A DNA stretch of 11,956 nucleotides from Podochytrium sp. JEL0797. Its lineage: Eukaryota > Chytridiomycota > Chytridiomycetes > Chytridiales > Chytriomycetaceae. The notes under the pieces are model-generated. The model saw only the letters and a list, made by a program, of their open reading frames with translations. It ran no database searches and was not told where the DNA came from. Location of the stretch: the NCBI GenBank assembly GCA_027596195.1, contig JADGJG010000836.1:1-11956 (forward strand), read 5' to 3'. A program made the position numbers and the translations under genes. Positions 2,395-11,810 of the stretch are shown in pieces; position 1 is the stretch's first letter, and every line of letters begins with the position of its first letter.

Positions 2395-5300
2395 ATGCTT
2401 GGCAAGAACGCAACTGCCAAAGCAACGAGAGAGGTTTCAGGCTCTTCCTCCTCCGATGACCTTCAAGGGATCGTTAAGAAGGGCAGAGGCAAGCGAGTAG
2501 TTGTCTGTGACTCTGACGAGGAAGAAGTCAAGGGCAAGGCATCATCGGCTTCTAGTCAAGTCCCACCAAAGAAAAAGGCTGTGCAGACCTCGCTCGATTC
2601 CTTCTTTGGCGGAAAGCCGACAAAGACAGCGACGCCAGCGAAGCCAGAGCAAAAGAAGCCCAAGCCTGCCTCCTCTGCTGTCAAGAAGGTCGCCAAGGAG
2701 CCCAAGCCTGCCTCTGCTGTCAAGAAGGTCGCAAAGGAGCCCAAGCCTGCCTCGGCTGTCAAGAAGGTCGCAAAGAAGCCCAAGCTGAACGACGACGAGG
2801 AAGGTGCGTCTCTTTTTGCCCCTAGTCCATCCATCTAGGAGCACCCTAGTAACACTCTTACATCCTAGTCGATGACGCCCTCGCCGCCTCTGCCCTAGCC
2901 GACCTCGAACCCATCAACCAACTCAACGACATGTTCTCCGACATGGTCACGCGCGTACCAAACCTGTACGACGCAGTTAAACAGTTCGCGTCCCAACGCG
3001 GCCCGCTAAGAGTCGCCACAATGTGTTCTGGGACGGAATCGCCGCTTCTTGCCATCGAGTTGATTAGCGAAGCCTTGGAGGAGAAACTGGGCGGTGCTTC
3101 GAAGCTGGATGTGAAGCACGTGTTTAGTTGTGAGATTGAGCCGTTTAAGCAAGGTGACCATCAAAACGCGTTTTGTTTGTACACTTTTCAAATCGAAATT
3201 TTTAATCAAAACAAACCAACCCAGCCTACATTGACCGCAACTTCTCCCCCCCACTCCTCTTCCGCGATGTCCGCCAACTTTCCTCCACAACTGCCACTAC
3301 CGCATACGGATCCACCGCCCCAGTCCCAGGACACGTGGACATTCTCATTGCAGGCACCTCCTGCGTCGACTACTCGTCCCTCAACAACAAAAAGCAAGGC
3401 ATCGAAGCTGCTGGTGAATCTGGTGACACTTTCCGTGGTATGCTTGGGTGGGTTGTGAACCATCGTCCTCCGATTGTGATTCTCGAAAACGTGTGTGGCG
3501 CGCCGTGGGACAAGGTCGTGGATCTGTTTGAGGGGGTCGGGTACGCCGCCAGTTTTACACGCGCGGATACGAAATTTTATTATATCCCGCATACACGGAC
3601 GAGGGTGTATCTGGTCGCGTTTTGTAAAGAGGTGTTTGGGGAGGTGGGCGCCGAAGAGGGGGTCGAGAAGTGGAAGGCTGCGCTGAAGGCGATGCAACGA
3701 AAAGCGAGTACGCCTTTGGAGGATTATTTGTTGGCGACCGATGATGCACGGATTCATCAAGCGCGTGTTCAGTTGGCCAAGACGAAGGTATGTGAAGCTC
3801 ACGCGCTACCCGCGCGTGATCTAGTGTGAGCGAGGTCGGGCGTGGCAATGCGCGGCGCCGCAGCGCGAAGCGCGTGTGTGTATGTGGGGTACGGCGCTAA
3901 GCACGTGGGAGGTCGGCGCGGGTCGACGCGCGTGTCTGTACGCGCGTGCGAGCGATCGAAGTCGGCGCGTAGCGCACGCATGCGTGCTTGTATTTGAGCT
4001 TTTGCACGCGTTTTTACAAGCGTTTCCCTGCTCCGCAACTAACAAAACCAAAAAAAATAGGACAACGCACCCACCAACCGACGCACCGAATGGTCCCGCT
4101 GTGAATCCCGTCACTCTTTTGCCCGCATCAACGAAAACCTGGGCCAAAAACGCCCGCTCACGGCCTGGTCCGAAGGCGGCATGTCCAACTACCCCGATTA
4201 CGCGTGGAACGACTGGGGGCGCACGCAGACGGACCGTGTGTTGGATTTATCGGATATCAATTACCTGCGTTTGGCGAAAACGGGGGTGGATGCCATGTTC
4301 AAGACGTTGGTGTGGAATTTGAGCCAGAATGTGGATCGGAATACGGCGTGAGTCTTTTGTTTTTTGGGATTCCGATGGGAGAGAGGTTTAAAACCAGCGA
4401 ATACAGTTCCTCAAACCCTGGAATCTGCCCCTGCCTGACCCCTACCATGATCGCCTGCATCACGAACCGCGGCGGGCCCCTCGTCGGTCTCGAAGCCCTC
4501 AGTTTACAAGGCATCCCCGTCGACAAACTCCTCCTCACACGCGAGACGGAAGACCAGCTCGCGGATCTCGCCGGAAACGCCATGACTTCCACCGTCGTCG
4601 GGGCCGCGTTCCTCTCCGCTTTTGTGGCGGGACTCGAAGGTTTGCTCGCACATGGGGTGAAATTGGCGGATGTCGTGCCGGAGGAAGAGCAAACAATCGA
4701 AACGAACCAAGTCTCACTTGAAGACCACGTGATTGGAACACAAGTCCTCACCCCGCACCCTCTCAACCTCCAAGTCCAAACCCCACTCATCCTGTCCACC
4801 TTCCTCACCGAATCCCAACAAACTTCACGTCATTGCGCGTGTGAAGGCCGAGACGGTGTTTCCACAAGCCCCATCCAAACATGTACCGAGTGTGCGCATT
4901 CGTCGTGTTTACAGTGCGGGGGCAGACCTGAGCATGTATATTCTGATGTGTTTGTTTTACCTGAGGGGCGCGCGGCGCCGGCGGGGTTTGCGGGGAGGGT
5001 GAAGGAGGCGTTGCCGATGAGGGTGTACGTGCAATGGATTTCGGGGGATGCGTTGATGCAGGTTGTTGAGGGGTTGAAGCCATGTCCGAAGGATGTGGAT
5101 GCTGCGTTAGTAAACGAATGGATTGAGATCGTGTCTTCCGTGCTTTCAAGTAATGGACGCGGCGACACGGAGTTTCGGTTCTCGAGTCTGAAGAGGCAGG
5201 AAGTGTGGACGGCTGTTTACGTGTCTCGAGGGGCGCGGTTGGTGTTGAGTGTGGAACCTGGGAGTGTGTATTGGTTGATGTTTGTGGATGCTGTGAAGGG

Positions 5301-8300
5301 GTGTTCTGTGGGTGTGAGAGAGGCTTTGAAGAACCCCGTGGCGAGGATGGAGGTTCCTATCGGGGCTGAAGGGATGCAAGTCGCGGATGCGTTGGTGGAA
5401 GGGAAGTGGGATGTATTCGTGCCTGCTGCGTTTCGGTTTAACGTGAGTGTGACGGGGGAAGGTGTGTTGATGGATTCATGGGAATCGCGGTTAGGTTTGC
5501 AAGCGGAATTCGCGGACAAGAAGGTGTGGAGTCTGTGGAGGGTTTCGAATGCTTCGAGTGCGGAGATTGAGCTTCCATTCGGAGGAATTGATGGCGTGTT
5601 TCGCGCGATACCCAAATGTGGAACCGCGATGGAATCTTTGCATGTACGTGAGAAGGATGCGGAGGAGAGAGGGGAGTTGTTTTTTTTCATGGACCCCACG
5701 CGGTGTGGACATGCTGCAGAGGATTCGTTTGTATTCGCGACACGGGCGAGGAGGTTGGAGTATTTGGAGCAGAGGATGCCGATTGCAGTTTTGGATGCGG
5801 GGTGGCGGCCTTCGGATGTGAGTGGGGAGCAGGTTGTGAGGGCGAGGGTGGATGGGGTTTGGGCGCGGTTAGGGGAGGTTGGGATGAGGGTGGAGTCGCG
5901 GGGTGGACGAGCGGAGATGAGTGTGTTGGAGAAACACGCGTTGGTGGAGTCTGTTTCGGAACGGGAGAGGTGTTGCGCGTCGTCTGTGGCGTTGGTGCAG
6001 GTTGAGGTTGAGTTGGGGGAATATGTGGAGTCTGTATGGAGTAGGAAGGGTTGGAATGAAGTGGATTTGGTCAAGACGGGGAAAGAGGTGTTTGAGAAGG
6101 TGGCTTGGTTTAGTGAGCGGGTTGAGATGCCGCGGTGGGTGCAGGAGTGGAGTGTGATGGGGGCGGAGAGTTTGGGGTTGGGGTGTTTGGTGAGCATCTT
6201 GTTTTTTCACGTTTGACATATTTTTGCTGATGAACGCGTGTATAGGTTCACGGCACGAGTCCTTGTATCTCCTGCGCCCCCAACGAGCCCAAAATCCTCT
6301 GGGTCCCTAGCCTCAAGGGCAAATCGAAAAGCTTTCTCGCGATCGAAGACCCCTCTCAAGCCGGAGTCTACGAACGCGCGCTCAAGAACCGACCCAACGC
6401 GTTCGTGGTGCAACTCCAACTGCAAGAATCGGGCGAAACGAAAACGGGCGTGTTTCGAATTGGAATCAATTTCGCGTCCTTGATTCATCGCGCGGCGGCG
6501 CGGTTGGTGACTGTTCCGTTTTTGACGGATTCGTCTTCCGGATATGAGTTTTCATGGCGGGTTACTTGTGATGCTGCAATGCACTCGCGGGGAGTACAGT
6601 CGTTGCCCAAACTGCAACTCTGTTCGAACCGCAACGACGCGCAAGTCGCGCAACCGCCGAGTTTCAAAAAGTTTCCTTTGCGGCCTGAACAGGTGCGGTC
6701 GTTGGGGTGGATGATTCGGCAGGAGGAGGAGGCGGTGGGGTTCACGGAGGAAGAGGTTTCGGAGGCGTCGCTTGAGTTTTTGGGGTGGCGTGCTGAAGGG
6801 AGGGCGGCGCGGTCTGTTTTGATTCGGGGAGGGGTAGTTGCTGTGAGTTTTTGCATTTTCTCTTCCCTGTTTTGCTATGGATTTGAAACTGATGGGGGGT
6901 GAAATAATAGGACGAAGTTGGATACGGCAAAACCGCAATCACCCTCGGCCTAATCGACTACGCCAAACACTCCCCCTCCTACAATCTCCCACGCCCCGAC
7001 GTACCAGGCCGCATCTCCGTCAAAGCGACCCTCATCCTCGTCCCCGGCCACCTCCTCAAACAATGGCCCAGCGAAATCAAAAAATTCACGGGAACCACAC
7101 TCACGACGCTCGTTATTACGGACGTGGGACATCTCAACAAACTCACGGTCGAGGATGTGATGAAGGCGGATGTGATTGTCGCGTCGTCCAAGATTTTCGT
7201 GTCGGAAAAGTATTGGGATAACGTCGAGGTTCTGGCGGCGGATGGAAAGTTGCCGCCGGATGCGAAAAAGGGGGGGCGGTATTTCAATGCGCGGTATAAG
7301 GAGTGTTTGGGGAGTTTGCGTGCGCAGGTGGAGAAGTTGAAGGTGGGGGATGTGAGTGGGGTTGTTGGGGAGATGGAGAGGGCCAAGGATTTGGCGGTGG
7401 AGGAGGAGGTGCGGGCCAAGAGTGGGAGTGCTGTTGTGCAGGGGAAGAGGTTGAAGGGGAAGCAGTATCGTGACAAGAATGGGAAGGGGGAGAGTGTTGA
7501 GGAGGAGGAGGAGGAGGGAGACGAGGAGGACGGGGATGAAGTGAAGGACGCTGTCAAGAAGCACAAGCTTGGCAAATCGTCGATGGCGGACCCGTGGGGA
7601 CTCACGAATTCGGATGTCAAGAGGAACTGGAAGAAGATGAAGTGTCCTCCTTTCGAGATGTTTCATTGGAATCGATTGGTTGTGGATGAGTTTACTTATT
7701 TGACGGACCGTATCCATGCGGCTGTGATTAATGTGAGCGCAACGAATCGGTGGATCTTGTCTGGAACGGTGAGTTTTTTTATTGGAGTGGTGTACGATCC
7801 TATTTTTCTTATTCCCTGTTCCAATCTCCAGCCACCCGTCAAAGACTTCAACGACATCAAATCCATCGCCGTCTTCTTGGGCGTCCACCTCGGCGTCGAC
7901 GACGAAAGCGACTTTTCGGGCGCGAAAGCCAAACGCCGCAAGCGTGAAGCCACCTCTGTCGAACAGTTCCATGCGTTCCGCGAAATCCATACCCCCTCCT
8001 GGCACGCCCGCCGTCACGCCATGGCGCAGTCCTTCCTGTCCCAATTCGTACGTCAAAACATTGCCGAGATTGATGAAATCTTTGCGGAGGAGGTGATTGT
8101 GAGCGTCGATCTCCCGCCTGCCGAACGTGCGATTTATCTGGAACTCGAGCATCACCTCCAAGCGCTGGATATGAATTCGAAAAAGGCGGTCAAGTTCAAG
8201 ACGGGGATGGATGGCGATCGGGATCGCAGGATGTTTAAGGCGTTGGGGAATTCGTCGACGGCTGAGGAGGCGTTGATGAAACGGTGTTCGCATTTCGCGT

Positions 8301-9874
8301 TGGATGAAGGATTGGAGGGGGGTGTGGTTGGTTCGAAGAAGGTTGAGGAGGAGGAGGATGGGTCGGATGAGGAGAATGAGGATGTGGGTGTGGCCAGTGG
8401 GTCTGCGGGTAGTGCGGGGAAACTCATGACGGCTGCAGAGACTTGTGCGGAGATTACGTCCACGCGAAAAGGGCAGATGATTGAATGCGTGCGGGACATT
8501 TGGACGCAGATTCACCGCATCAAGCAGGCGCGTGATATCGCCAAGGGACGCGACGATTTCAAGGCGCATTGTCGTGAGATTCGGTCCAAGGATCGAAGCG
8601 ACGCGGTGGATCATTTTGACAAGTGGTTGATGATGGTTGGGAGTGGCGGGCATGTCGGGGATGTGGAGGCGATGGCGATTGTGGTGTTTTTGATCAAGAG
8701 GGCGGGGTGTGTGGATTCCGGGTCTGTTGCGGAGGAGTTGGTTGAGAAGCAGTATGGGGATTTAGTGGGGTCTGGGAAGAGTGTGGATGTGGTTGGGGAT
8801 GTGTTGAGGATTCGCGGGTTGGTGGATATTAACCTCAAGACGGTTTTGAAACCGATTGCTGTGTGGAAACCAACCGTCAAGGCGAGCAAAAAGACGGTCA
8901 AGCGGACCAAAGTGGAGGTTGATGAAGAAGCCGAGGAAGCTGTGGGAAGTTTGGAGGCCACTCTGGCCAAGATTGCTGGGGAGGGCGCGTTTGATGTGGC
9001 CGAAGTGCTTCACTTTATCCGCGAGGAAACTCATGCTGGAGGTCGTTTGCAGAAGGAGTTGCTGGGACGCGTGCGGTCCCTCCGTTTCTTCAACGGTGTC
9101 GACAACATTGTGCTTTCCGACACGCGGTTCGAAATTCTCGCGAACGCGATCCAAGAGTGCTCGAGCGACGCTTGCGCGACTGACAAGACGATGGGACTCG
9201 AAAGTCAGCAGTACCTTGTCGATAACTCTGCCATTCTGTCCTGCTGTGGCCACATGGGATGCCTTGCATGCGTGATGCGATCAGCTGCCAATCAGAAGTG
9301 TCTCTCTCCCGGATGCAGTATCGTTGTTCACGACAAGGCGATTGTCCCGACGACCGTGTTTGGAGACCTCTCCTCAACGGATGTGAACGGCCAGTCGACT
9401 GCTTCTGGAAAGTTTGGCGCCAAGCTCATGCAGCTCGTGGAAATTATCCAAACGCGCGTGATTCCCAACAAGGAAAAGGTGCTCGTGTTCGTGCAGTTTG
9501 ACGACTTAATGGAAAAGGTCGGGCTCGCGTTGGATCAGTATGGGATTGGGCATTTGGAAATCAAGGGGACTTCGGCGGCCAAGAGCAAAGCGTTGGATTT
9601 GTTCCAGTCTTCGGAGAAGGGAACTGGTGCGCCCGTGTTGCTGTTGAATGTGGGGGATGAAAGCGCGGCTGGTGCCAATTTGACCATTGCGAACCATGTG
9701 GTGTTTTTGAACCCGCTGTTTCACCAGTCGAATGAGTGGATTCAAGCATGTGAGACGCAGGCAATTGGGCGAGCTAGGCGGTACGGGCAGCTCAAGAAGG
9801 TGTGGATTTATCGGCTGCTCGCGTCGGAAACGATTGACACTGTTTTGTTTGAGAAGCGGGCCAAGTTTGTATAG
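2395..9874 (+). CDS. DNMT5: DNMT5-type cytosine-5 DNA methyltransferase with SNF2-like ATPase and RING-like finger
   Basis: Exons: 2395-2803, 2869-3153, 3225-3787, 4061-4347, 4407-6189, 6246-6842, 6911-7768, 7832-9874. The join is in frame and gives 2274 residues, close to the size of known fungal DNMT5. The family maintains CG methylation using ATP in the nucleus. Order seen: PIP-box 64-71; Lys/Pro/Ala repeats 89-128; methyltransferase about 180-590, with motif I C-S-G-T-E-S-P (189-195), catalytic C278 in G-T-S-C-V-D-Y-S, motif VI E319-N-V, motif VIII R356-T-R358 and motif X G571-N-A; Cys-rich module 658-685; a second CxxC at 1116-1119; helicase motif I D-E-V-G-Y-G-K-T (1309-1316); Ia L-V-P-G-H-L-L-K-Q-W (1351-1360); II D1567-E-F; III S-G-T-P-P (1592-1596); RING-like Cys/His 2037-2089; motif VI Q2237..G-R-A-R-R..Q2247. 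Acidic insertions lie at about 7497-7550 and 8340-8390. The catalytic Cys is preceded by Ser, not the Pro of most C5 methyltransferases; I believe this is a family trait. No chromodomain is visible. Start chosen at the ATG with A at -3 just before the PIP region; an upstream in-frame ATG exists at 1996. DNMT5 identity is secure; exact junctions are manual. Confidence 0.92.
2584..2607 (+). other. PIP-box (PCNA-binding motif) in the DNMT5 N-terminus
   Basis: Residues 64-71 read Q-T-S-L-D-S-F-F, an exact match to the consensus Q-x-x-(L/I/M)-x-x-F-F. They are preceded by a lysine cluster (P-P-K-K-K-A-V) that can act as a nuclear localisation signal and strengthen PCNA binding. The surrounding region (Ser-rich 15-20, acidic D-S-D-E-E-E at 39-44) is predicted disordered, as expected for an accessible PIP-box. 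Match to consensus is seen; PCNA binding is inferred. Confidence 0.75.
2659..2784 (+). repeat. Three tandem 39-42-bp repeats encoding a linker-histone-like lysine-rich tail
   Basis: Copies lie at 2659-2700 (42 bp, one extra Ser codon), 2701-2739 and 2740-2778, plus the start of a fourth (2779-2784). Each encodes P-K-P-A-S-A-V-K-K-V-A-K-E or a close variant. The copies are nearly identical at DNA level, including synonymous sites, which indicates recent duplication and probable length variation between strains. The Lys/Pro/Ala composition resembles histone H1 C-terminal tails and would bind DNA non-specifically. Confidence 0.85.
2804..2868 (+). other. DNMT5 intron 1 (65 nt, phase 1)
   Basis: Donor AAG/GTGCGT, acceptor TCCTAG/TC. 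Joining gives E-E-V-D-D-A-L-A, linking the N-terminal tail to the methyltransferase domain. Other CTAG words inside the intron were not used because they do not restore the frame. Confidence 0.85.
3154..3224 (+). other. DNMT5 intron 2 (71 nt, phase 1)
   Basis: Donor CAAG/GTGACC, acceptor AACCCAG/CC. Joining gives E-I-E-P-F-K-Q-A-Y-I-D-R-N-F, the expected cofactor-binding segment after methyltransferase motif I. Confidence 0.88.
3788..4060 (+). other. DNMT5 intron 3 (273 nt, phase 0, extremely CpG-rich)
   Basis: Donor AAG/GTATGT, acceptor AAAAATAG/GAC, with a CTAAC branch-like word about 20 nt upstream of the acceptor. It is four to five times longer than the other introns. By hand count it holds about 42 CpGs, about 38 of them in its first 210 nt, with alternating CGCGCGTG-type runs; ACGCGCGTG occurs at 3926-3934 and 3940-3948. 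Retention would hit a stop at 3827-3829, inside the methyltransferase domain. Confidence 0.85.
4348..4406 (+). other. DNMT5 intron 4 (59 nt or 50 nt, phase 2)
   Basis: The donor is GC/GTGAGT. Two acceptors nine bases apart both keep the frame: ACAG ending at 4406 (used here) and CCAG ending at 4397, which adds E-Y-S. The distal one is preferred because the only A-rich branch-like word (about 4389-4393) sits too close to the proximal AG. Both may be used, giving isoforms that differ by three residues. Confidence 0.7.
4834..4917 (+). other. Cysteine-rich putative zinc module after the methyltransferase domain
   Basis: Residues 658-685 have spacing C-x-C-x13-C-x2-C-x4-C-x2-C (C658, C660, C674, C677, C682, C685, with H657 and H679 adjacent). 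This could bind one or two zinc ions. It does not match the CxxC domain of DNMT1 or a PHD finger in spacing that I can recognise. Function unknown; a protein or DNA contact is plausible. Confidence 0.55.
6190..6245 (+). other. DNMT5 intron 5 (56 nt, phase 0)
   Basis: Donor TTTG/GTGAGC, acceptor TGTATAG/GTT. Joining gives G-C-L-V-H-G-T-S-P-C-I-S-C, starting exon 6 with a CxxC pair. Confidence 0.85.
6843..6910 (+). other. DNMT5 intron 6 (68 nt, phase 0)
   Basis: Donor GCT/GTGAGT, acceptor AATAATAG/GAC. Joining gives R-G-G-V-V-A-D-E-V-G-Y-G-K-T, an intact helicase motif I (Walker A). Confidence 0.9.
7769..7831 (+). other. DNMT5 intron 7 (63 nt, stop-free, multiple of three)
   Basis: Donor ACG/GTGAGT, acceptor CTCCAG/CCA. 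Because it is 63 nt and has no in-frame stop, it can be mistaken for coding sequence. Removing it restores W-I-L-S-G-T-P-P-V, the classical SNF2 motif III; leaving it in inserts 21 residues between T1594 and P1595. The restored motif is strong support for splicing. Confidence 0.88.
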
Positions 9875-10135: not shown

Positions 10136-11810
10136 TCAAAACAACTTGAACCAAATCTTCTGTCCCCACTCCTTCAAGTTCTTGGGTCTTGCATGCGCAC
10201 GGTCGTTCTCCTCTCTCTGCTCGGCAGTCTCAATCAATCTTCCCGTCTCGAAATCCATGTCTTCGTATTTGACGAGACTGAACCCACTCTTGAAGATACC
10301 GTGACAAAGGAACAGAGCGAGAATCAACGGCGCACCAAAATAGATCCATGAGTGATCGAGCCACCATTGCAGGTTGAAGAAAGTTGCACTGTCTTCTCCG
10401 TTGGTGAAAAATGCCGAGAATACCATCAGCACCGTGACGAATGATCCGATGCTCAAAGAGAGAACGTCGGCATATGGGTAGAAAGGCGCCACATAAGGCA
10501 ACTCTTCGGTCTTGTGACCTGTGTTTGAGAAGTGGAGAGTGTGAGCAAACTGATTCGGCTGAAGTCAAATTACTGCGACCAACCTTGCGATAAATACCCC
10601 GCACGGAATCTCAAATGAGTGATTGACATAATGTTCCAATTGGTCACAACGCCGAACCCAAGAATTCCAGACAGGAAATCGAACACGTGAGTGGACCCTT
10701 CTGGCCCGGACAAGAACGCGGACCCGACGGCTACCAAACCAAACATGGCGACAAGAAGCACAGAGTTGACGGGGACACCGCGTCGGTCGACCTTGGCGAA
10801 AATCTGGGGCGCGTTTCCCTCTTGCGAGAGGCGCAGCAACGTGCGGGCACAAGCGTAAAGAGCCGAGTTGGCGGCTGGATGAAACAGAACCATCAAACAA
10901 AGCTCGTATATAGCAAAATCACCGAAACTCACCACTCGAGGCAGATACAATGATGATAAAGTTCATGAAATCAGCACCAAACGCGATCCCCGCTTGGTTG
11001 TACGCATACACGAACGGCGATTCCTTAATAGACGAGGCTTGCAAAATCTCGGAGTCCGGAGCGAGAAGCACACCCACGAGGAACAGGGAAAGAAGATAAA
11101 AGATGACAATGCGATCTATAAATCGATTAGATCCCATGGCACACACTCTAAAGTGATTCAACTCACAGAAGGTTCCATTAATGGCGCGCGGGACAGACAG
11201 CCGAGGGTTGGCAGCCTCCCCGGCTGTCACTCCGACAAGCTCCGTGCCACCATACGAAAAGAAGGCTGTGATGAAAGTGGAGCCAATGTTGATGAAGCGG
11301 ATCAAAGAAGTGTCTCCAACGATGGCAGGATTCCAGTTTGTGAACCAAAGAGGCCCGGTTCCTTGTCCAACGCCGAACCAGACGAATGTTCCTGTGTTGT
11401 TCCACTAATTTCAGTTCAAAGCTCGCCGGGGAAACAAATGCAGTCGAAACGAGAGGAATATCTACCAATCAACAGGAACAACACGATGGCGAATATCTTT
11501 ACAATACACATGCCAAATTCAGCTTCGGCATAGCCCGTCACGGCAAACAAATTGAGGGACACCAGCGGAATCATGTAAACCAAAGACCACACCCAGCTTG
11601 GACATTCCTCAACCGTCACCCAGTACTGCATGAGCGACGCGATGCCGGCCATCTCGGCTGGGAATGTGAGGGCTGAAGATTTTGGGTGAGTTTGAGCTTC
11701 TTATTTCATATTCGGGAAATATAACTTACCCCAAACTGTCCAGTAACTCCATCCGTTCGCGAAACCCAGCGCCGGCATCACAAATCTGGCGGGCATGTTG
11801 CTAAAGGCGC
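10136..11810 (-). CDS. Amino acid permease, fungal YAT/APC family (N-terminus not resolved)
   Basis: Exons on the minus strand in transcript order: 11810-11730, 11672-11466, 11391-11167, 11115-10933, 10874-10584, 10518-10136. The join is in frame and codes for about 456 residues, including the stop-proximal cytosolic tail. It is a multi-pass transporter, likely of the plasma membrane, importing amino acids with protons. Family signatures include G-A-F-S near the left end, A-L-G-F-A-N-G-W-S-Y-W, T-F-P-A-E-M-A-G-I, F-F-S-Y-G-G-T-E-L-V-G-V-T-A-G-E-A-A-N-P (sixth membrane segment), Y-R-I-V-I-F-Y-L-L-S, A-A-N-S-A-L-Y-A-C-A-R-T-L, N-A-P-Q-I-F-A-K-V-D-R-R-G-V-P and H-L-R-F-R-A. About ten hydrophobic segments remain, matching segments 3-12 of a 12-segment family. 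Segments 1-2 (with the G-T-G-L-F motif) are not found before the right edge, so the gene is cut by the window or truncated. Substrate cannot be read from sequence. Convergent with DNMT5. Confidence 0.9.
10519..10583 (-). other. Permease intron (65 nt, phase 1)
   Basis: Minus-strand donor CAAG/GTTGGT, acceptor ACACAG/GTC. Joining gives L-S-Q-G-H-K-T-E-E-L-P-Y-V-A-P-F, the loop before the last two membrane segments. Confidence 0.85.
10875..10932 (-). other. Permease intron (58 nt, phase 1)
   Basis: Donor AGTG/GTGAGT, acceptor ATCCAG/CC. Joining gives V-S-A-S-S-A-A-N-S-A-L-Y-A, a conserved permease segment. Confidence 0.88.
11116..11166 (-). other. Permease intron (51 nt, stop-free, multiple of three)
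   Basis: Donor TTCT/GTGAGT, acceptor TTATAG/AT. Joining gives I-N-G-T-F-Y-R-I-V-I-F-Y. If retained, the frame stays open and adds 17 residues. The family motif Y-R-I-(V/L)-x-F-Y is restored only by splicing. Confidence 0.87.
11392..11465 (-). other. Permease intron (74 nt, phase 1)
   Basis: Donor ATTG/GTAGAT, acceptor ACACAG/GA. Joining gives F-L-L-I-G-T-F-V-W-F-G-V-G. Confidence 0.82.
11673..11729 (-). other. Permease intron (57 nt, phase 1)
   Basis: Donor TGGG/GTAAGT, acceptor CTTCAG/CC. Joining gives W-T-V-W-A-L-T-F-P-A-E-M, as expected for membrane segment 3. It is a multiple of three but contains a TAA in frame. Confidence 0.86.

Follow-up and report, generated by a model that had tools for sequence, protein, structure and literature searches.

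The window analysed here is one entire contig of 11,956 nucleotides (JADGJG010000836.1) from the assembly of the chytrid Podochytrium sp. JEL0797 (GCA_027596195.1; 24.4 Mb in 995 contigs). It contains a plus-strand gene of eight exons whose joined frame is open up to the stop codon and whose seven introns all begin with GT and end with AG. Exon 3 matches the Pfam DNA_methylase family, an SNF2-related domain begins in exon 7, and exon 8 carries a Helicase_C match slightly under the Pfam curated cut-off; we take this order of domains to fit DNMT5, the name that the gene received in the initial annotation. The exons lie at 2395–2803 (exon 1, with the start codon and lysine-rich repeats), 2869–3153, 3225–3787, 4061–4347, 4407–6189, 6246–6842, 6911–7768 and 7832–9874, and the introns between them at 2804–2868 (65 nt), 3154–3224 (71 nt), 3788–4060 (273 nt), 4348–4406 (59 nt), 6190–6245 (56 nt), 6843–6910 (68 nt) and 7769–7831 (63 nt). 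Intron 7 is in frame and stop-free, so that exons 7 and 8 read through as one open frame of 987 residues; its retention would add 21 residues to the protein. By eye, intron 3 is dense in CGCG-type words, in which it differs from the other introns, and near-exact tandem repeats at 2650–2790 give rise to a lysine/proline/alanine-rich segment in exon 1, the DNMT5 exon that has no C gradient. On the minus strand lie a single-exon gene for a GATA factor (551–1114) and a 291-nt permease exon (10584–10874).

Counting C at third codon positions (C3) in the first and last 30 codons of each DNMT5 exon revealed a saw-tooth along the gene: C3 went from 20 to 4 in exon 2, 20 to 2 in exon 3, 17 to 5 in exon 4, 20 to 0 in exon 5, 16 to 0 in exon 6, 21 to 4 in exon 7 and 23 to 4 in exon 8. 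These recounts reproduce all seven values that had first been reported for the exons after introns, the end value of 5 given for exon 8 being matched when sense codons alone are counted (4 with the stop codon). The same agreement was obtained for exon 1, which had been described as lacking the trend (10 at either end), for the GATA gene (15 to 2, a gradient without any intron) and for the permease exon (13 to 6, in one of two open frames). We corrected the C slope for amino-acid composition and compared each exon with 2000 within-exon permutations: the fall persisted in exons 2–8 (z = -4.4, -5.3, -4.3, -9.0, -5.6, -6.3 and -3.1, respectively) and was absent from exon 1 (z = +0.9). G increased along all eight exons (z 2.0 to 7.1), weakly in exon 1. 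Exon 8 is non-monotonic, with C climbing anew over the seventh and eighth tenths of its length (C3 of 44% and 32%; about 9060–9470), where there is no intron; this C-rich stretch could be the trace of a lost intron, or could reflect codon constraint in a conserved region. Fitting one break to the C-G track placed it about 480 nt after the start of exon 5 and 240 nt after that of exon 7, but this statistic drifts to mid-exon by construction (correlation 0.87 with exon length) and was not relied upon.

Outside the window we examined 24 stretches, each 10 kb long, which together make up about 1% of this genome. Each was the first 10 kb of a contig of 10,477–44,374 bases, the contigs being picked at intervals down the contig list; longer contigs (e.g. 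one of 122,827) fall outside, so that the sample is non-random. Genes were predicted with two finders: finder A, run on 20 stretches, has a single coding composition, and finder B has two alternating coding compositions and is blind to exon edges. When run on DNMT5, finder B recovered five of the eight exons exactly, placed one edge wrongly in the other three and added one false exon. Gene models with a coding score of at least 20 were kept (98 of 111), which outside the window amounted to 95 genes, 38,477 codons and 170 introns. One stretch (L026) contains a large predicted gene model that by eye resembles a retroelement polyprotein, with a zinc-knuckle-like segment.

In the profile from finder A, the 10 codons that follow an acceptor had a C3 of 0.45 as compared to 0.34 expected from the amino acids, and the 10 that precede a donor had 0.19 as compared to 0.32. 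The first 50 codons after start codons had C3 of 0.36–0.48 (expected 0.29–0.33), and the last 10 before stop codons 0.13 (expected 0.29). Among the 157 sampled exons that have at least 60 codons and do not run off a stretch, C3 was lower in the last 30 codons than in the first 30 in 128, higher in 19 and equal in 10 (sign test p = 5e-21, exons that share a gene being non-independent), and the per-gene amplitude was positive in 72 of 78 genes. DNMT5 is a strong case, with a C drop of at least 16 in six of its seven post-intron exons as compared to 14 of the 157 in the sample. The fall was found in exons of every type: 18 of 25 running from start codon to donor, 49 of 62 from acceptor to donor, 39 of 42 from acceptor to stop codon, and 22 of 28 from start to stop codon. 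The last group, with three rises and three ties, is the intronless control that the initial annotation had called for, and it reveals that the underlying pattern exists without introns.

The claim that C resets after introns was borne out beyond the window. Among the 107 predicted introns with at least 30 codons on each side (63 of the 170 were dropped), C rose across 84 and fell across 23 (p = 2e-9), with a mean change of +0.154. By contrast, 629 points lying 60 codons or more from either edge of an exon showed no reset (239 up, 323 down, mean -0.028). In about 1% of the genome, therefore, C3 does peak after acceptors, and arbitrary break points within exons do not imitate it; the saw-tooth is confirmed as real and general within the sample. 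For only 5 of 170 introns did the two-composition model's change from a G-like to a C-like state coincide exactly with the junction (113 were C-like and 52 G-like on both sides), which counts in part against a sharp reset and indicates that the average reset is made of many moderate shifts. Of the 67 switches of that type located within exons, 24 lay at most 60 nt after an acceptor and 9 at most 60 nt before a donor.

It is scarcely credible that these results are an artefact of our home-made gene models, or that they describe one unusual gene. The errors of the finder within DNMT5 speak for such an artefact, and so do 4 of 14 introns inside Pfam domains across which C did not rise. These introns come from four gene models, drawn from the 39 with at least three exons after exclusion of one with an internal stop, that encode coatomer gamma, succinyl-CoA ligase, chitin synthase and a kinase running into a Sec1-like gene. 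Against an artefact, C rose at the remaining 10 (at one barely), with pooled C going from 0.365 to 0.475 and G from 0.350 to 0.199; the single-composition finder yields the same profile; and intronless genes show the fall. Moreover, mapping the deposited coatomer gamma protein by tblastn onto its stretch (L024) gave blocks that mostly show a fall of C, at 19/15, 21/6, 8/12 (of 25), 14/17, 14/6, 18/1, 20/3 and 21/0, where block edges are the approximate ends of tblastn matches and the start of the fifth block is taken from our own gene model. The two blocks without a fall, which count the other way, are the shortest (51 and 62 codons).

Averaging over the sample revealed that every kind of coding-segment edge, whether start codon, acceptor, donor or stop codon, has a collar of about 180–240 nt on its coding side. 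There the strand that leads out of the non-coding gap and into the exon has more C than G and, to a smaller degree, more A than T. Edge effects on C-G were +0.271±0.042 at acceptors, +0.293±0.046 at start codons, -0.250±0.035 at donors and -0.377±0.038 at stop codons. Thus the gradient is intron-linked, as first described, insofar as it restarts at introns and does so generally in the sample, but start codons behave like acceptors and stop codons like donors. Regression of amino-acid-corrected third positions on the distance to an exon's own edges, with a best-fitting decay near 180 nt, gave C-G effects of +0.294 on the left and -0.295 on the right; for A-T, at 200 nt, the values were +0.095 and -0.116. 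In the 63 exons of at least 180 codons, C-G on the left was +0.196, +0.201 and +0.209 over 0–180 nt, +0.110 at 180–240 nt and +0.025 at 240–300 nt, and on the right, from the edge inward, -0.240, -0.189, -0.169, -0.076 and -0.051, a profile that is plateau-like more than sloping.

An exon's left and right collars come close to being mirror images. In exons of at least 130 codons, the first 180 nt contained A 0.229, C 0.355, G 0.206 and T 0.209, and the reverse complement of the last 180 nt A 0.248, C 0.332, G 0.201 and T 0.219, while the middles were balanced (A 0.221, T 0.224, C 0.279, G 0.276; dinucleotide strand-symmetry distance 0.024). The dinucleotide distance between these two end segments was 0.085 with the last 180 nt reverse-complemented and 0.496 with them taken as read. 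An exon start therefore closely resembles the reverse complement of an exon end, so that the pattern is nearly blind to the direction of transcription; the switch had been called strand-asymmetric, a description that with respect to transcription does not hold.

A row of exons, each with two opposite collars that add, produces the appearance of a saw-tooth, and the rough additivity of the collars leaves short exons with a smaller skew. Summed collars from long exons predicted exons of 70–110 and 110–180 codons with scale factors of 0.96 and 1.06. For exons of fewer than 110 codons, which made up three classes, adding beat a nearest-edge rule by 30, 46 and 44 squared-error units (all bootstrap intervals positive), and the nearest-edge rule was also worse there than a prediction of zero; at 110–180 codons the gain was +13 units, with a bootstrap interval that spans zero. 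Additivity is only rough: at 20–45 codons adding was no improvement on a prediction of zero, at 45–70 codons the skew was 1.6 times the sum, and in 29 strong-signal exons of 20–70 codons it was 2.0 times the sum.

Distance to the exon edge described the skew better than position in the gene (sum of squared errors 17634 vs 17905, null 18167), and relative position along the exon was rejected as an alternative scale, since its cross-validated error was at best 16376 as compared to 16324 for fixed distance (null 16831). A residual gene-level gradient of -0.148±0.026 remained in 60 multi-exon genes after the exon edges had been fitted. For the next exon edges beyond an exon's own, the estimates were +0.074±0.093 and -0.144±0.116, and the reset showed no clear trend with intron length over 44–300 nt (124 introns). 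Outside coding DNA, where skew was measured relative to start and stop codons, (C-G)/(C+G) stood at -0.24 in the first 20 nt downstream of stops and at +0.20 upstream of start codons, reaching about 0 past 40–60 nt; within introns, skew was short-range and signal-like only.

The signal is not confined to third positions. C at codon position 1 was 0.26–0.30 in the first 30 codons and 0.16–0.18 in the last 30, codon position 2 carried the signal too, and amino-acid usage was also shifted at exon edges. There was no step in GC: in the 63 long exons GC3 was 0.651 in the first 60 codons, 0.648 in the middle 60 and 0.626 in the last 60. At fourfold sites, pyrimidines went from 0.655 at exon starts through 0.549 in the middle to 0.451 at ends as GC remained almost constant (0.653, 0.658 and 0.629), so the change along the exon is chiefly from C to G. 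Deamination of cytosine or adenine alone, which needs a constant balance of purines and pyrimidines, is thereby excluded. As a modifier of the pattern, translational selection gave a Spearman correlation of -0.15 (p = 0.19, 78 genes).

Use of 4-mers at edges, expressed as log observed/expected, tracked that in exon interiors (correlations 0.93 and 0.94). A few words slightly passed the chance limit (TTTT, CCAA, CAGA and AGAG at exon ends, GCCG at starts) and others were depleted (GGTG, GTGG and GGGG at ends, GGGG at starts); selection for motifs thus finds little support, word use following composition save in these few cases. Local folding in 60-nt windows followed no common rule across the kinds of edge when compared with interiors, where the energy was -11.2: windows that begin an exon gave -10.0 at acceptors and -10.6 at start codons, and those that end one gave -11.8 at donors and -11.2 at stops. 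Coding regions of the 24 stretches also show a strong avoidance of TA (observed/expected 0.33–0.38 against position-specific composition). Third-position C is preferred over T at 0.89 in exon starts and 0.72 in ends when the next base is A, and at 0.63–0.66 in starts and 0.34–0.43 in ends before other bases.

What might produce collars of this kind? Three causes had been offered at the outset, and they fit the collars less well. Purine-rich splice enhancers before donors sit badly with the fact that A drops and T increases toward donors; avoidance of AG after acceptors, with the fact that start codons bear the same collars and that these reach 180–240 nt; and R-loops would be expected to mark one strand along transcription, and would not by themselves yield equal and opposite collars. 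A broader mutational bias tied to the phases of RNA polymerase II transcription (initiation, elongation and termination), possibly together with splicing-dependent R-loops, seems to us quite unlikely. It would accord with the C-rich 5' and G-rich 3' gene ends published for most unicellular fungi examined (PMC3315797, in the portion of its text available) and with the gene-level gradient that survives the exon-edge fit; yet DNMT5 runs through several cycles within one transcript, C steps up across most introns, and a skew that is edge-bound and near strand-symmetric counts against explanations tied to transcription start and end. The mirror symmetry itself would be explained if each exon start paired with an exon end, either that of the same exon or the one across an intron, under selection to unite splice sites, given that C/A-rich and G/T-rich segments are compositionally complementary. 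We regard such pairing as highly improbable: in 60-nt windows, true partners had no clear advantage over swapped ones, with energies of -25.91 and -25.97 kcal/mol across introns (124 pairs), and of -27.47 and -27.14 kcal/mol within exons (194 pairs, z = -0.6).

Selection at the RNA level is a more serious rival, although we still think it rather unlikely. Factors for exon recognition or packaging would here prefer C/A-rich starts and G/U-rich ends, with the cap and poly(A) machinery acting at gene ends. That skew fades within 40–60 nt outside coding DNA, that a gene-level gradient remains and that few introns switch composition exactly at the junction all lend it weight, as do a collar mostly confined to coding DNA, with fast decay in introns and flanks, the reset of the collar by introns of every length class from 44 to 300 nt, and the greater skew retained by short exons than pure addition predicts. 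Pre-donor skew was also greater at donors of strong consensus (rho -0.355, n = 136); we attribute this correlation chiefly to false introns that dilute the weak class, but it could be real, in that weak donors still reset (27 of 39, as compared to 31 of 38 strong ones). Set against selection on RNA are the scarcity of words enriched past composition, with donor-like GGTG and GTGG and runs of G falling under expectation at exon ends; the weaker collars of short exons, which are those most in need of definition; the lack of an obvious reason for near-equal mirror amplitudes; and the shift in amino acids as well as synonymous sites.

The reading that we prefer, and hold tentatively, is that the collars may stem from a strand bias that acts on DNA in the manner of mutation and takes non-coding gaps as its anchors. 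These gaps would be promoters, terminators and introns, those of 44–65 nt included, and the bias would extend about one nucleosome length into the adjoining coding DNA; the collar length of 180–240 nt is suggestive of a link to nucleosomes. One strand might be repaired or copied outward from the accessible gap or, alternatively, short transcription might proceed outward in both directions. Equal and opposite edge fits, the reverse-complement symmetry, superposition of the collars, the near-absence of motifs, the signal at codon positions 1 and 2, the lack of a clear trend with intron length and the better fit of exon-edge distance than of position in the gene favour a gap-anchored mutational bias. 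It is weakened by the far smaller skew on the non-coding side, since a mutational source should mark unconstrained DNA equally or more, although events that begin at scattered sites within a gap might have signs that cancel there. The change from C to G at almost constant GC, which deamination alone does not account for, the greater strength of stop edges, the residual gene-level gradient, the roughness of additivity and the rarity of exact junction switches weaken it further.

A C-to-G skew at the level of the gene is already known in fungi (PMC3315797); what is added here are collars at exon edges that are mirror images of one another and roughly additive. These sharpen the published property by assigning the skew to the edges of coding segments, over about 200 nt and near-equally on both strands; they alter amino-acid choice at exon edges and are relevant to gene finding and codon-usage work in chytrids. 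More doubtful is a wider proposal, that gaps anchor a strand-symmetric mutational process which imprints the first nucleosome length on each side; if so, the skews at fungal gene ends would be one instance of a more general effect of gap edges and not a mark of transcription phase.

Among the matches listed in the open-access literature, we found no report of exon-level, strand-symmetric collars. The nearest precedent is the study of McLean and Tirosh (2011; PMC3315797), which, in the portion of its text available, describes C at the 5' and G at the 3' ends of genes in most unicellular fungi, with all codon positions affected and G skew peaking at stop codons, and lists Batrachochytrium dendrobatidis among its data. 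Our genes share with that description the excess of C at starts and of G at ends, the involvement of codon positions 1 and 2 and the strongest G at stop codons. Beyond coding DNA the published skew enters promoters and 3' UTRs; here the sign is likewise kept, over about 40–60 nt from start and stop codons. Our genes differ from the published ones in that AT skew, flat along the latter, here flips together with C-G, and in that one cycle per gene in the published scheme is replaced here by restarts at introns, a set collar length and rough additivity. That analysis treated whole genes, the main text as available mentioning 'intron' a single time and 'exon' never, and no exon-level resets were found in it.

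Splice-related skews in mammals, as covered in the available part of a review (PMC10030826) that refers to Zhang et al. (2008) and Touchon et al. (2004), resemble the collars in being positioned relative to splice sites. According to that review, citing Zhang et al., exons and introns of human and mouse are oppositely skewed, intronless genes have no skew and yeast deviates; by contrast, intronless genes bear the pattern here, and their falling C also departs from what a bias in exonic splicing enhancers leads one to expect, namely its absence from such genes. In Arabidopsis and rice, introns structure G+C content (Ressayre et al., 2015; PMC4684703, in the part of its text available). As in these plants, coding composition in the chytrid steps at introns; unlike in the plants, where it is G+C that changes, GC3 stays at about 0.63–0.65 throughout and it is the strand skew that flips.
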